In this document: positions 22,166 to 25,290 of the stretch, in pieces
Layout of the letters: each line of letters begins with the position of its first letter
How positions within the stretch are numbered: the stretch's first letter is position 1
IMG/VR virus record: IMGVR_UViG_3300030388_000411
Coordinates: 1 to 26,394 of that record
DNA: 26,394 nt
Source of the DNA: a virus
Strand: one strand, 5' to 3'
Notes under the pieces: model-generated
What the model was told of the DNA's origin: nothing
Seen by the model: only the letters and a program-made list of their open reading frames with translations
Database searches by the model: none
Program-made: the position numbers and the translations under genes

Positions 22166-22556
22166 ACTATACCCTTTAATTCTTTTCCATTTATACAATC
22201 CCATTCCAAATTTTTTTATATTTTTTTTTTACTTCCAAAAACTGCTGAATATTCCATTTATTTTACTATAACTTTGTATTCCTTAGAATATACTGTTGCT
22301 CATATCGCAACTAGCATATTTAATAACCTTCCCACTTAACAATATATATTATGTTTAAATTCAGAATTGGTAATGTCTATATACAACTTATTCCATTTAA
22401 AATAACTTGGAAGTTTTAATTCTAATGTATCTTTATGAAATTGGATTTAGATTTCTTGCTTGTGTGTGTGTTTGCTCAAGGATGTATAGTTACAATATCC
22501 GCGTTTTTGGAAAATGACCCTTTTACTCCTTTAATCCTGTTTTTTACCTGAAGATC

Positions 22557-22708: not shown

Positions 22709-22740
22709 AAAAAAACCTTACTAAATTAATAATAAGGTTT
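22709..22740 (-). terminator. Intrinsic terminator of the GP88 cassette
   Basis: On the minus strand AAACCTTA is followed by a 12-base loop, then TAAGGTTT, and directly by a T-run (plus strand has seven A at 22709-22715). The perfect 8-bp stem plus T-run is the clearest intrinsic terminator in the window. It lies 22 bases after the stop of the 25-codon ORF and would separate the cassette from the late genes. Confidence 0.75.
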
Positions 22741-22761
22741 GTAGTTTGTTATTGCTTTAAG

Positions 22762-22839
22762 CTAACAGCTGAGCAAAAATAGTATGAAGATCAGAGCAAT
22801 TATATTGTCATTAAATGGGATCTTATCAAATTGACTCAT
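22762..22839 (-). CDS. Very short hydrophobic ORF (25 codons)
   Basis: ATG 22839 to TAG 22762 encodes MSQFDKIPFNDN followed by IIALIFILFLLSC. The second half is a single membrane-spanning stretch ending in LLSC, which resembles a lipobox Cys but is the last residue. Its ATG overlaps the TGA of the preceding 35-codon ORF (ATGA), a common sign of coupled translation. The terminator follows 22 bases later. Short length keeps the call tentative; it may be a small membrane peptide expressed with the GP88 cassette. Confidence 0.4.
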   Translation of the reverse strand: MSQFDKIPFNDNIIALIFILFLLSC

Positions 22840-22943
22840 ATTGTTTTTAATTGTTTTTTTCTTTTGTTTCTTTCTCTTTTTTTCTTTCTGTTTTCTTTAA
22901 AAATATTAAATTCTTTGTCTGTTGTTGTTGTTGTTGTTTTCAT
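22836..22943 (-). CDS. Short basic ORF (35 codons)
   Basis: ATG 22943 to TGA 22836 encodes 35 residues: M-K, six Thr from a (ACA)6 run, DKEFNIFKEN, then a highly basic RKKKRERNKRKKQLKTI end. It begins 13 bases after the GP88 stop and its stop overlaps the next ORF's ATG. The triplet repeat could vary in length between isolates without breaking the frame. The composition could reflect nucleic-acid binding or simply A-rich DNA being read through, so the call is tentative. Confidence 0.4.
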   Translation of the reverse strand: MKTTTTTTDKEFNIFKENRKKKRERNKRKKQLKTI

Positions 22944-22956
22944 TGTTTATTATTTA

Positions 22957-23559
22957 TTAGTGAAAAATTAAACCTACTTTTTTATTGTCTGTTATTGCTT
23001 GCAAATCATTACTTGAAGCGTCTATATATCCCGCCGCTGTTAATTCTTCTGAGGTCTTAAATATACGGGCGTGGCGGTGTTTGTTCACATTAATTAAATT
23101 ATCTGTTTTGCTACCTTCTGAAAATATAATCTTTAAATTTGTAGGAACTGTGAAACCCTCAACAAAGAACTTAATTGATTTAGTATAAGCATAAAAAATA
23201 ACTTCTTTGTTATCGTTTGCAATATCAACCCACTTTTGCAAATATAAAGGACTGTAAAAATCGCCGCTGTCGTGTATTCTAACGTGTGTTGGCTTTTTCT
23301 TTTGTATCTCTGTATTGATCAAGAAAGGGAAATTATCCTGTTTGCTTAATAAATATTTTTTCTCCATTAGTTCTTGTACTATTGGAAAGCGTGTGTAATT
23401 GCCCTTCTGAGCATAACAATAGGCTTGGCACCCTCCCGCAAAAGGGCAGGTACTTTTACCGCTTTTAGTTTTATAGGCGGGAATTGAAAAATTTAATATC
23501 TTTGCTTTATTTTCTTTGCTAGTCTTTTTCATTTTAGCGTTCTGAGTAAGTAAATTCAT
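22957..23559 (-). CDS. GP88-family protein with Cys cluster
   Basis: This 200-residue protein matches the phage 'gene product 88' family in its key parts. It starts MNLLTQNAKMKKTSKENK, then a Cys cluster C38-x5-C44-x3-C48 in STCPFAGGCQAYCYAQKG, then VRIHDSGDFYSPLYLQKWVDIA near residues 93-114, a FYAYTKSIKFF strand and helix near 122-132, and LKIIFSEGSK near 142-151. The family is known from mycobacteriophages and bacteria; to my knowledge its function is not established. The Cys cluster followed by alternating strands and helices is reminiscent of radical-SAM proteins, although the spacing is not the canonical C-x3-C-x2-C, so this is only a hypothesis. The gene uses GC-rich codons more often than the virion genes. 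It is the main product of a promoter-to-terminator cassette. Confidence 0.75.
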   Translation of the reverse strand: MNLLTQNAKMKKTSKENKAKILNFSIPAYKTKSGKSTCPFAGGCQAYCYAQKGNYTRFPIVQELMEKKYLLSKQDNFPFLINTEIQKKKPTHVRIHDSGDFYSPLYLQKWVDIANDNKEVIFYAYTKSIKFFVEGFTVPTNLKIIFSEGSKTDNLINVNKHRHARIFKTSEELTAAGYIDASSNDLQAITDNKKVGLIFH

Positions 23560-23587
23560 TTTTAAAAGTGTTTTTAATTAATAGTTT

Positions 23588-23818
23588 TTAATTGTGTTCT
23601 TTGCATGTTGGGCACATTCTAAGTTCTTGGTCTAATTCATCACCGCAACAAGAATAAAAACAATTATTGCAATATTTGTTGTCTTCCTCGTTTAGTTCTA
23701 TTTCTTCAGGTGTCAAATCTGCAGCGCATAGAGTACACAAAACCGCTTCTTCTGTGTTCTCTGTTGGGTCATCTCCATAAGTTGACCTAGTGGCTTTTAT
23801 ATAGCTTTCAAAATTCAT
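23588..23818 (-). CDS. Small double zinc-ribbon protein
   Basis: This 76-residue protein carries eight cysteines: C28-x2-C31, C50-x2-C53, C57-C58 and C69-x2-C72. They fit one zinc site from the first two pairs and possibly a second from C57/C58 with C69/C72. The linker between the pairs is acidic (ADLTPEEIELNEEDNKY), and the end, CPTCKEHN, is typical of zinc ribbons. It overlaps the upstream 47-residue ORF by 11 bases and lies 28 bases before the GP88 gene. A partner or regulator role is a guess. Confidence 0.65.
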   Translation of the reverse strand: MNFESYIKATRSTYGDDPTENTEEAVLCTLCAADLTPEEIELNEEDNKYCNNCFYSCCGDELDQELRMCPTCKEHN

Positions 23819-23951
23819 TTTTTTTGTTTTTTAATTTCTTAAATTCTGTTAAATATTTATCATGCTTTTGCTGTCTTGTCTCGTCTTGATATGTTGCAAG
23901 CTTATGAAGTGAAAAAGACAGGGCTATAATAATTAAAATTTTTATTATCAT
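23808..23951 (-). CDS. Small membrane-anchored ORF (47 codons)
   Basis: ATG 23951 to TGA 23808 encodes MIIKILIIIALSFSLHKLAT, followed by a charged 27-residue tail (YQDETRQQKHDKYLTEF, ending KLKNKKNEF). The first 18 residues form one hydrophobic membrane segment or signal anchor, and the rest would face one side of the membrane. It starts 4 bases after the upstream gene's stop and overlaps the zinc-ribbon start by 11 bases, which is the spacing expected of a real gene in an operon. No family recognised. Confidence 0.55.
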   Translation of the reverse strand: MIIKILIIIALSFSLHKLATYQDETRQQKHDKYLTEFKKLKNKKNEF

Positions 23952-23955
23952 TTTA

Positions 23956-24303
23956 TTATATTTTATTGTGAAAGATTATATTTTTTAAGTCTGTTTGTAT
24001 TTGCTCAACTTCCTGTTCAGTAGCTGCAAAAATATTATAAATTTGCATTAAATCCTTGCTTTGGTTGGTTGTGTACTCTAGAATTTGCACCGCTTCAGAA
24101 ATTTTTAATTCACCGACAAAATTATATTTGTTTAAATTTTCTATAATATCCTTGTAATTTTGAGGATACGGGAAACTGTTTATTTCTAATTGAATTATTC
24201 TTTCAGCCTTCAATTTTTGTTTTAATGTGTAATTTTTCAAAATATAATTTTTTAAGTTTGCCAATATTGACACTGTAAAGATACAAATAAATTTGATATA
24301 CAA
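23956..24303 (-). CDS. Helical protein of unknown function, first gene of the GP88 cassette
   Basis: The open frame is 115 residues with no ATG near its beginning. Possible starts are TTG 24303, GTG 24273 and TTG 24264. TTG 24303 coincides with the -33 element of a promoter-like sequence (24276-24303), which, if real, would favour 24273 or 24264 (LANLKNYILKNYTLKQK). The remainder is helical and moderately charged: ERIIQLEINSFPYPQNYKDI, NLNKYNFVGELKISEAVQIL, a DLMQIYNIFAATEQEVEQI helix. Nothing suggests catalysis. It precedes the membrane ORF by 4 bases. Unknown function; start uncertain. Confidence 0.5.
   Translation of the reverse strand: MYIKFICIFTVSILANLKNYILKNYTLKQKLKAERIIQLEINSFPYPQNYKDIIENLNKYNFVGELKISEAVQILEYTTNQSKDLMQIYNIFAATEQEVEQIQTDLKNIIFHNKI
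24276..24303 (-). promoter_or_regulatory. Bacteroidota-type promoter candidate before GP88 cassette
   Basis: On the minus strand TTG (24303-24301), 17 bases, then TATCTTTA (24283-24276). The Bacteroidota consensus is TTG, 17-23 bases, then TAnnTTTG, so one base of the -7 box differs. It is located precisely ahead of the cassette that ends at the 22709 terminator. AT-rich DNA makes chance matches likely, so confidence is modest. Confidence 0.4.
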
Positions 24304-24515
24304 TACAAATAATTTATAAATGTTTACAAAGGTGCTAATTTATTTTAATTCTAAATAAGAAAATATATTTTTGCAGTATATAGGAACGCATGCACGCAAA
24401 TAGCAAAATATTTGATCTGACAAAATAAAAAGGATAAAGTTATTAACAATTAGATTATATAGAATGGTTCTAAATAAGATAAAAATTGCTCTTTATATCC
24501 CTTATAACATACCTA

Positions 24516-24578
24516 GCAGTTTCAACAGGTTTGGCAGTTTCAGCAGTTTCAGCAGTTTCAACAGGTTTAGCAGTTTCA
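24516..24578. repeat. Seven tandem 9-bp units (iteron-like)
   Basis: Reading the plus strand, the order is A-B-A-A-A-B-A, where A is GCAGTTTCA (five perfect copies) and B is ACAGGTTTG or ACAGGTTTA. The units are directly adjacent. Because 9 is a multiple of 3, both strands stay open across the array in some frames, but no ATG starts such a frame. Iterons bound by replication initiators, or regulator-binding arrays, are possible roles. Confidence 0.75.
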
Positions 24579-24596
24579 GGAAAATTTAAGAAAATC

Positions 24597-24694: not shown

Positions 24695-24892
24695 TTACTT
24701 TAGATAGGTCTTTAACCTAAGTATCTTATTGATGATTGATTGACTTACCTTATACTTAATAGCTAACTGATGCTGAGTATAAACTCCTTTAGCATACTCT
24801 AGTCTAATAATCTCTGCTTCCTCTAAGGTAAACTTCCTCTTAGCATATCCACCACCTCTCCTATCCTTCCTGTCGTATAAATTTACACTCAT
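24695..24892 (-). CDS. Small helix-turn-helix DNA-binding protein
   Basis: This 65-residue protein has a basic N-terminus (DRKDRRGGGYAKRK), a helix FTLEEAEIIRLEYAKG at about 21-36 and a helix-turn-helix at about 38-60 (YTQHQLAIKYKVSQSIINKI). This arrangement is common in short phage and mobile-element proteins with a homeodomain-like or resolvase-type HTH. It could be the regulator that binds repeats in the adjoining gap. It starts by a 4-base overlap with the nuclease stop (ATGA-type). Confidence 0.75.
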   Translation of the reverse strand: MSVNLYDRKDRRGGGYAKRKFTLEEAEIIRLEYAKGVYTQHQLAIKYKVSQSIINKILRLKTYLK

Positions 24893-25290
24893 ATTGTTTT
24901 GTTAAAGTAGGCATCTATAACCTCTAATGATTGATCTAATCCTTTAGTAACCCTAGCACAATAACCTTGTTCGTTAAGGTATGCTATCCATTCTTTCTGT
25001 TCTTTAGTTGGGTAAGATTTCTTATCCTTTTTTATTTCAAGAAACAATCCATGATACATTTCTCCTTTGAGGGTACCCCCCTCCCCCTTATCCCCCTCTA
25101 CCCCCCTCTCCATAGGAAAACAGATTTGTAGATCAGGGAAGCCTTTTACATAACCTGTAGCCTTAGCCTTCACAGCTTGTTTAAAAGATGTTCTAATGCC
25201 TCCTAAAGAAGCACAGTACATTACTTTAGGGTACTTAAACTTTAGGTAAGTGATTACGCTTTTTTGTACTTCTTCTTCTTGATTTCTCAA
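24889..25290 (-). CDS. VRR-NUC nuclease
   Basis: This protein of up to 133 residues has the VRR-NUC signature: EEEVQKSVITYLKFKYPKV near 5-23, a SLGGIRTS segment near 28-35, GFPDLQICF near 50-58 and LFLEIKKDKKSY near 82-93, followed by Gln98 in KEQKEW. Asp53, Glu85 and Lys87 are the likely metal-binding PD-(D/E)xK residues. The family acts on branched DNA in phage replication and repair. No ATG lies before the motif; the only start in frame is TTG 25290, inside a 56-base overlap with the upstream gene. Residues 62-72 (RGVEGDKGEGG) form a Gly-rich insert encoded by four G-runs, unusual for this genome. Confidence 0.9.
   Translation of the reverse strand: MRNQEEEVQKSVITYLKFKYPKVMYCASLGGIRTSFKQAVKAKATGYVKGFPDLQICFPMERGVEGDKGEGGTLKGEMYHGLFLEIKKDKKSYPTKEQKEWIAYLNEQGYCARVTKGLDQSLEVIDAYFNKTI
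25076..25106 (-). other. Four-run G-quadruplex motif within the nuclease gene
   Basis: On the coding strand the runs are GGGGGG, GGGGG, GGGGG and GGGGGG, separated by TAGA, ATAA and A (a further GA-rich flank precedes). The motif fulfils G3+ with loops of 1-7. It would occur in both the DNA and mRNA. It stands out in a genome where runs of four G are rare. Confidence 0.7.

Follow-up and report, generated by a model that had tools for sequence, protein, structure and literature searches.

The DNA analysed here is IMG/VR virus record IMGVR_UViG_3300030388_000411, which comprises 26,394 bases (the whole record of a marine bacterial virus) and is referred to below as the window. Between the small early genes and the TerL block of the window lies a short minus-strand operon that contains a gene of the 'Gene product 88' family (GP88; PF17338). 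This operon is real, well bounded and variable. On balance, it is probably a cargo slot at the early/late junction, in which recombination between related phages swaps the inner genes and in which GP88 most likely is a minimal radical S-adenosylmethionine (SAM) protein that modifies host or phage molecules. As a phage accessory locus it is ordinary in kind, and less so in its lasting frame and its GP88 cargo. The frame would consist of a promoter region at one end and of a micropeptide frame and a terminator at the other; the cargo carried here would be a 94-aa protein, a membrane peptide, a zinc-ribbon-like protein and GP88. The locus had been singled out in an annotation made without database searches (the sequence-only reading). 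Its features and the adjoining early genes are as follows (ORF, open reading frame):

24889-25290: VRR-NUC-like early protein (Pfam match below threshold)
24695-24892: HTH-like early protein (Pfam match below threshold)
24276-24308, minus strand: Bacteroidota-type promoter-like site at the head of the variable operon (TTG-N22- or TTG-N17-TATCTTTA; -7 box 24283-24276)
23956-24240, minus strand: 94-aa protein with no assigned function, TTG start (a 115-aa ORF in the sequence-only reading, start moved from 24303)
23808-23951, minus strand: 47-aa protein with one hydrophobic span (hydropathy peak 1.99)
23588-23818, minus strand: 76-aa zinc-ribbon-like protein with 8 Cys (homologues 40-70% identical in relatives)
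22957-23559, minus strand: GP88, PF17338, phrog_1392, 200 aa, invariant Cx5Cx3C (profile match; radical-SAM-like predicted fold)
22836-22943, minus strand: 35-codon Lys/Thr-rich ORF, overlapping the next ORF by ATGA
22762-22839, minus strand: 25-aa core micropeptide with a hydrophobic tail, the last frame before the terminator here and in relatives
22709-22740, minus strand: intrinsic-terminator-like hairpin and T-run at the operon end (-10.2 kcal/mol, top of 39 candidates)

The borders were observed by alignment of the window DNA with ten relatives, which left one interval that fails to align as a block. With relative L012 (TerL 98% identical), homology extends over 25005-24542 (97%) and then over an island at 24330-24272 (92%); inside the slot only parts of the zinc-ribbon and GP88 genes align, and homology is found again from 22839, where the ATG of the 25-aa ORF starts, and continues past the terminator (84%). 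With L034 (TerL 99%) it likewise resumes at 22839 (86%). The borders between core and cargo were placed near 24272 and at 22839, where alignment as a block breaks off and sets in again; the 25-aa ORF and the terminator are accordingly core and not cargo, and the cargo spans approximately 24272 to 22840. The gap between the HTH gene and the 25-aa ORF measures 1.9-3.3 kb in the window and five relatives.

Turnover of the contents was scored by using 99 TerL relatives, of which 80 were kept; the whole slot, between the VRR/HTH genes and TerL, is covered by 23 of these contigs. Counts were restricted to contigs found by TerL, since loci found by GP88 are biased towards its presence, and the principal survey of slot ORFs was made without L019. 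GP88 of subtype A was found in ten of the 23 covering contigs, GP88 of subtype B in two and none in 11; with the window included, subtype A amounts to 11 of 24 (L101 and L102, both of subtype A, have identical TerL). Mapped onto a TerL tree of 24 rows, the three states require nine changes (shuffled mean 9.6), that is, they do not cluster, and the state 'none' by itself needs nine changes, at least seven of which are forced by well-supported branches. The PF17338 profile gave no match in ten of the 11 contigs scored as 'none', though it detected subtype B, which is 24% identical; for L066 the status 'none' was assigned by tblastn only. Four slots without GP88 hold a protein of 376-414 aa in its place (the family was joined by eye):

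376-414-aa proteins: L037, 2883-4031; L043, 2669-3910; L049, 6633-7877; L066, 745-1875

The two of these that were tested (L037 and L043) matched nothing in Pfam or PHROGs; the L066 protein has a C-terminal Cys cluster. A protein of approximately 130-140 aa (fused in L104) together with a PF23790-type protein was found in L081, L092, L097, L104, L105 and L113, the PF23790 assignment being by profile for L092 and by eye for the other five. L075, also scored as 'none', holds a zinc-ribbon gene and other ORFs. The replacement cargo comprises the 376-414-aa family, PF23790-type and PF10902-type proteins.

GP88 was also found to have a history separate from that of its surroundings. The window protein is 92% identical to that of L002, a locus whose VRR, HTH and other early genes are 53%, 49% and 40-84% identical, respectively; it is 74% identical to that of L034 and 78% to that of L012, though the TerL proteins of these two are 99% and 98% identical. 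In a GP88 tree of 22 hand-chosen rows (72 distinct relatives were available, and 51 plus the window are in alignment A2), the window groups with L002 and L004 (support 97/83), and a clade of the window, L012 and L034 was rejected by the approximately unbiased (AU) test (p 0.018). Between the window and L002 the zinc-ribbon genes share only 54% identity; GP88 travels without its neighbour. Relative L040 (TerL 97%) retains homologues of the 94-aa (73%) and zinc-ribbon (70%) proteins next to a GP88 of the distant subtype B, an arrangement that reads as an in-place swap of GP88 subtype.

At the upstream end of the frame, the site at 24308-24276 differs by one base from the Bacteroidota promoter consensus TTG-N17-23-TAnnTTTG. 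Of 44 related loci, 34 have an exact match to this consensus in the 700 bases that follow the same upstream gene; 50 shuffles averaged 4.3 such loci of 44 and never exceeded 8. The distance from that gene is not constant (mostly 185-640 bases), and two of the 34 matches, in L037 and L068, are probably due to chance. The 44 loci remained from 52 after removal of eight second copies of the same contigs, the near copies L003/L004/L005 and L019/L020/L021 being retained. The DNA around the site is kept, despite other genes downstream, in L012 (92%), L040 (77%), and L043 and L049 (69-72%), which suggests that for some of the relatives the promoter region belongs to the core. A dedicated promoter at this site would drive transcription of the cargo, ending at the terminator. 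Within the window, a sigma-70 promoter scan was uninformative (21 sites, 25.3 expected), and the exact consensus beginning TTTG occurs four times (1.7 expected), none of them at the slot promoter. An inverted-repeat operator at the promoter was considered and rejected as unconvincing (mean score 4.5, shuffled 3.7; 32 promoters, L037 and L068 excluded).

At the downstream end, hairpin AAACCTTATTATTAATTTAGTAAGGTTT with its T-run (22740-22709) was the strongest of the 39 candidates in our own scan of the window; the built-in terminator scan omits it because that scan requires three G-C pairs and the stem has two. Hairpins with T-runs were found at the same position in all six relatives folded (L012, L034, L043, L049, L050 and L052; L040 and L051 were left out), with a sequence nearly the same as that of the window in L012 and different in the other five. 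The operon thus appears to have a terminator of its own. The sequence-only reading had named both ends, a promoter-like element and the best intrinsic terminator of the window, and both were recovered; it had also counted the 25-codon ORF as a cassette member, and this ORF proved to be a conserved core frame shared with relatives.

Differences from the window micropeptide at the first/second/third codon positions number 7/3/18 in L040, 8/3/17 in L050, 9/3/17 in L051, 9/3/18 in L052, 10/4/14 in L049 and 10/3/13 in L043, and the two closest relatives (3/2/2 and 3/1/3) show no third-position excess. The excess seen in the former is as expected of a coding frame. An ATGA overlap joins the 25-aa ORF to the last cargo ORF before it, both in the window and in relatives L012, L034 and L040. 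The conserved frame, recognisable by FDKIP, opens with an ATG of its own in the window, L012, L034, L040 and L197; in five other relatives it contains no ATG, GTG or TTG downstream of the stop that precedes it:

Micropeptide frames without a start codon, plus strand: L043, 3989; L049, 7953; L050, 121; L051, 58; L052, 1172

Directly 5' of the frame the same five carry a five-codon ORF of the form ATG-x-x-x-TTT-TAA (read from the bases by eye), and a +1 slip on TTTT would join the two. This junction is a candidate for a programmed +1 frameshift; alternatively, the frame may be untranslated there.

A GP88 search gave 467 relatives among 557 candidate stretches, of which 80 were kept. Named phages with GP88 amount to 128 records, 117 of them from Mycobacterium and all below 60% identity; the other records include ones from Streptomyces, Synechococcus, Pelagibacter and Methanomassiliicoccales. 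Structural matches in BFVD included a Nitrosopumilus spindle-shaped virus (E 5e-8) and Halogranum tailed virus 1 (E 4.7e-3). Cellular genomes yielded 86 GP88 loci, of which 80 were kept and 76 of these were actinobacterial by record title. At 42 of the 80 a member of a TraG/VirB4-type ATPase cluster lies upstream of GP88 (median approximately 2.9 kb), and representatives of the neighbour clusters match P-loop_TraG, TrbL_4 (below cut-off), PrgI, T4SS_pilin and Replic_Relax; among the loci L247-L326, GP88 genes of actinobacterial genomes stand in this way beside conjugation genes. By these gene contexts, GP88 appears in several unrelated kinds of mobile element.

The window protein is a full member of PF17338 (full length, E 1.6e-40, 139.8 bits, gathering cut-off 24.4), as the sequence-only reading had it, and the subtype B proteins of L040 and L106 also match this profile (E 1.1e-35 and 6e-34). 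The corresponding PHROGs entries (phrog_1392 and phrog_1617) are annotated as 'unknown function'. Across 52 sequences of both subtypes, C38, A41, C44, C48, G53, F77, R94, D100, F122, Y123, Y125, S147, D153, F167, D185 and G196 were observed to be invariant. The Cys motif is Cx5Cx3C in subtype A and Cx6Cx3C in subtype B (L040), and alignment of the two subtypes by hhalign (probability 97, E 1.2e-10) keeps the cysteines in register. AlphaFold models of the window protein and of the L040 subtype B protein, which are 24% identical, had pLDDT (predicted local distance difference test) values of 92.6 and 87.3. When the window model was given a second look by using VIA-align, all 16 top rows were enzymes that we take to be of the radical-SAM class: QueE of E. 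coli (Z 7.0, root-mean-square deviation 4.2, 144 residues aligned), QueE of B. subtilis (6.6) and viperin (6.2), followed by NifB (6.0), TYW1 (5.8), BtrN (5.7) and LIAS (5.3). All 16 top rows of the subtype B model were likewise radical-SAM enzymes (Z 5.6 to 4.3).

GP88 thus resembles radical-SAM enzymes (QueE, viperin, TYW1, NifB, BtrN) in its predicted fold and in three invariant cysteines after the first strand, and differs from them in its size (approximately 200-245 aa), its Cx5-6Cx3C spacing, Z scores below 8 and profile similarity that is not significant. Phage Gp37/Gp68 proteins (DUF5131, PF07505) share with it, by eye and in the same order, a Cys cluster, YA, S-x-D-x-F and a later TK, and one BFVD structural match of GP88 is named Gp37/Gp68-like (E 4.8e-7); they differ in their Cx6Cx2C spacing and in an hhalign comparison with GP88 that is not significant. 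The models suggest that GP88 works like a radical-SAM enzyme, which we hold to be fairly probable without filing it as a member of that superfamily: it would be a minimal QueE/viperin-like barrel with three cysteines placed for an iron-sulfur (Fe-S) cluster, and it would most likely modify a host or phage molecule in favour of infection (counter-defence or host take-over). Literature searches by family names and related terms showed, among the matches listed, no paper that deals with the GP88 family of phages, and a possible Fe-S enzyme nature of GP88 was not found in the literature searched. Gp88 of phage ICP1 is presumably an unrelated protein. The name also covers other proteins; in PMC8066314, gp88 is a concanavalin A-like protein.

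A number of results weigh against the account given so far. The Z scores of the top VIA-align rows (4.3-7.0) are below the guide value of 8 for this tool; for the window model the rows after them are glycoside hydrolases and another radical-SAM enzyme (Z at most 5.2), with which the lower of the top rows, lying within 1, are tied. Foldseek searches of the PDB with both models gave mixed folds and nothing at E <= 0.001. Comparison of GP88 alignments A2 and A3 with 20 rows matching PF04055 was not significant (hhalign, E 0.22 and 0.17; no positive control, and the L353 row perhaps mis-cut), nor was that with six DUF5131 rows, out of nine PF07505 matches (probability 0.3%, E 0.2; no positive control); a rerun of the latter gave E 0.27, with 0.49-0.95 in six shuffled or reversed controls. 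The spacing Cx5-6Cx3C is not the canonical Cx3Cx2C; noncanonical Cys motifs do exist within the radical-SAM superfamily. For the slot, the AU p value of the clade of the window, L012 and L034 becomes 0.066 once L068 is added, the promoter island was not found by blastn in L034, L037, L066 or L068, and L034 has no consensus match within 700 bases. NCBIfam and PADLOC searches gave weak, chance-like hits with no tie to a defence system; the best PADLOC match was JetC (E 0.00099), found with the 94-aa protein in its 115-aa form, and PADLOC holds models of defence, not of anti-defence. A search of solved structures by sequence gave chance hits only (E 1.2).

These weak fold scores, the noncanonical spacing and the lack of a significant profile link to radical SAM, together with the zinc-ribbon-like gene that adjoins GP88, would also suit a regulatory or inhibitory protein, with bound zinc or an Fe-S cluster of structural role, rather than a radical-SAM enzyme. 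We consider this unlikely, if still the most serious competitor: radical-SAM enzymes fill all top 16 VIA-align rows for two models that are 24% identical, and besides the cysteines R94, D100, F122, Y123, Y125, S147 and D153 are invariant, a pattern more like that of an active site than of a bare metal knuckle.

The exchangeable slot has further to be set against a classical moron, that is, a self-contained set of genes that brings its own promoter and terminator and has been inserted whole between phage genes that would otherwise be neighbours, as reportedly known from the lambdoid phages of Juhala and Hendrix. The likeness lies in accessory genes with a promoter-like site and a terminator between core blocks, and the variable presence and atypical codon choice of GP88 (z -6.2 and -2.9, see below) would agree with such an origin. 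However, the frame stays while the cargo changes: the 25-aa frame, the terminator and, in several relatives, the promoter island are common to phages with other genes between them. An empty slot was seen neither in the 23 covering contigs read nor in L066, all of which hold ORFs; insertion of the whole block, which would leave the flanks joined elsewhere, was looked for and not found; and GP88 and the zinc-ribbon gene differ in history. A moron is therefore improbable and already largely refuted. The sequence-only reading had proposed a separate, moron-like unit between the early and late blocks, moving as one self-contained cassette (22709-24303). The separate unit and its accessory, varying content are borne out, and the locus is no fixed core block of all relatives; the moron comparison holds in spirit, and not as insertion of a mobile block, and the single moving cassette has to be given up, with the 25-aa frame and terminator staying, GP88 moving alone and no empty site. 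Least probable of all is that these are ordinary early or middle core genes that diverge fast, so that absence is only apparent: the GC content at third codon positions (GC3) of GP88 is like that of early genes and GP88 is widespread (467 relatives among 557 stretches), but PF17338 finds the 24%-identical subtype B and nothing in ten 'none' contigs, and other genes occupy the slot instead.

All ORFs of the sequence-only reading were found in place on the minus strand, one with a different start. Its 115-aa ORF had been over-called: the homologues in L040 (73%) and L068 (50%) begin at M(K/E)NYTLKQKLKA, which corresponds to 24240 and gives 94 aa, and the first 63 bases of the longer reading are promoter/leader. 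The 94-aa protein had no Pfam hit up to E 0.1. The 47-aa protein has the one hydrophobic span expected of the membrane protein proposed; a small slot ORF with such a span was found in 17 of the 23 relatives scored (threshold 2.0, which the 1.99 of the window just misses), mostly just before the zinc-ribbon gene or its replacement and with widely different sequences. For the 76-aa protein the eight cysteines of a zinc ribbon are present, and the profile hit stays below threshold (DZR, 16.6 bits, cut-off 27.3). Zinc-ribbon-type slot proteins and Cys-poor ones of 104-144 aa (the latter in L015, L021 and L081) have a similar N-terminal leader around DP(N/T)xx (L009, L012, L015, L017, L021, L022, L027, L034, L040, L075 and L081), which looks as though one leader had been combined with various swapped domains. 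For the 35-codon ORF, which is possibly a gene remnant, tblastn at E <= 1e-4 gave no match in relatives.

GC-rich codons, which the sequence-only reading had noted in GP88, were ruled out as a sign of foreign origin: the GC content of the gene is average (0.332; 0.284-0.371 in 20 late/virion genes; GC3 0.312), CGGGCGTGG lies on the opposite strand, and codon choice alone is atypical. GCG GCG does occur in frame, once. The comparison of codon usage gave z -6.2 against 19 virion-block genes and z -2.9 against early genes of the window and five relatives (3,004 codons).

The window is probably a fragment of a larger phage genome, since the contigs of several relatives reach 34-37 kb. Portal, head protease, tape measure and TerL are all encoded on its minus strand; the nearest named phage by TerL is Croceibacter phage P2559Y (43%), and megablast of bases 1-25000 against the phage collection gave no match. 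Downstream of the HTH gene, 24500-24590 holds imperfect direct repeats of the CTGAAACTG type, a region in which blastn matches recur in most relatives compared. A stretch of approximately 300 bp without a convincing ORF (22175-22480) is 80-89% identical in L037, L040, L041, L043 and L049; a search of the whole window against Rfam at gathering thresholds, this stretch included, gave no hit. It could be a packaging site or a regulatory region of the late block.

Replacement at a fixed site by other genes or by a distant subtype, and the spread of GP88 among phages and conjugation contexts, fit an accessory, host-dependent role, from which we infer that the protein may, for example, modify a host factor or nucleic acid to escape defence. 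A wider reading is doubtful and is put forward tentatively: GP88 would be an unrecognised minimal radical-SAM family (Cx5-6Cx3C) that serves as interchangeable cargo of mobile elements (archaeal viruses, conjugative elements of actinobacteria, and tailed phages of Bacteroidota, actinobacteria and cyanobacteria) and modifies there a conserved host or nucleic-acid target against defence, and the slot would be a dedicated site of effector exchange. Phage accessory functions can conveniently be sought in a slot of this kind, in which the cargo changes between fixed borders, and relatives supply testable alternatives in GP88 of subtypes A and B, the 376-414-aa family and the PF23790- and PF10902-type proteins. 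If GP88 is truly a radical-SAM enzyme, a chemistry open to testing would be at hand for the 'Gene product 88' family, known so far by this name only, whose members occur in phages, in archaeal viruses and next to genes for conjugation.

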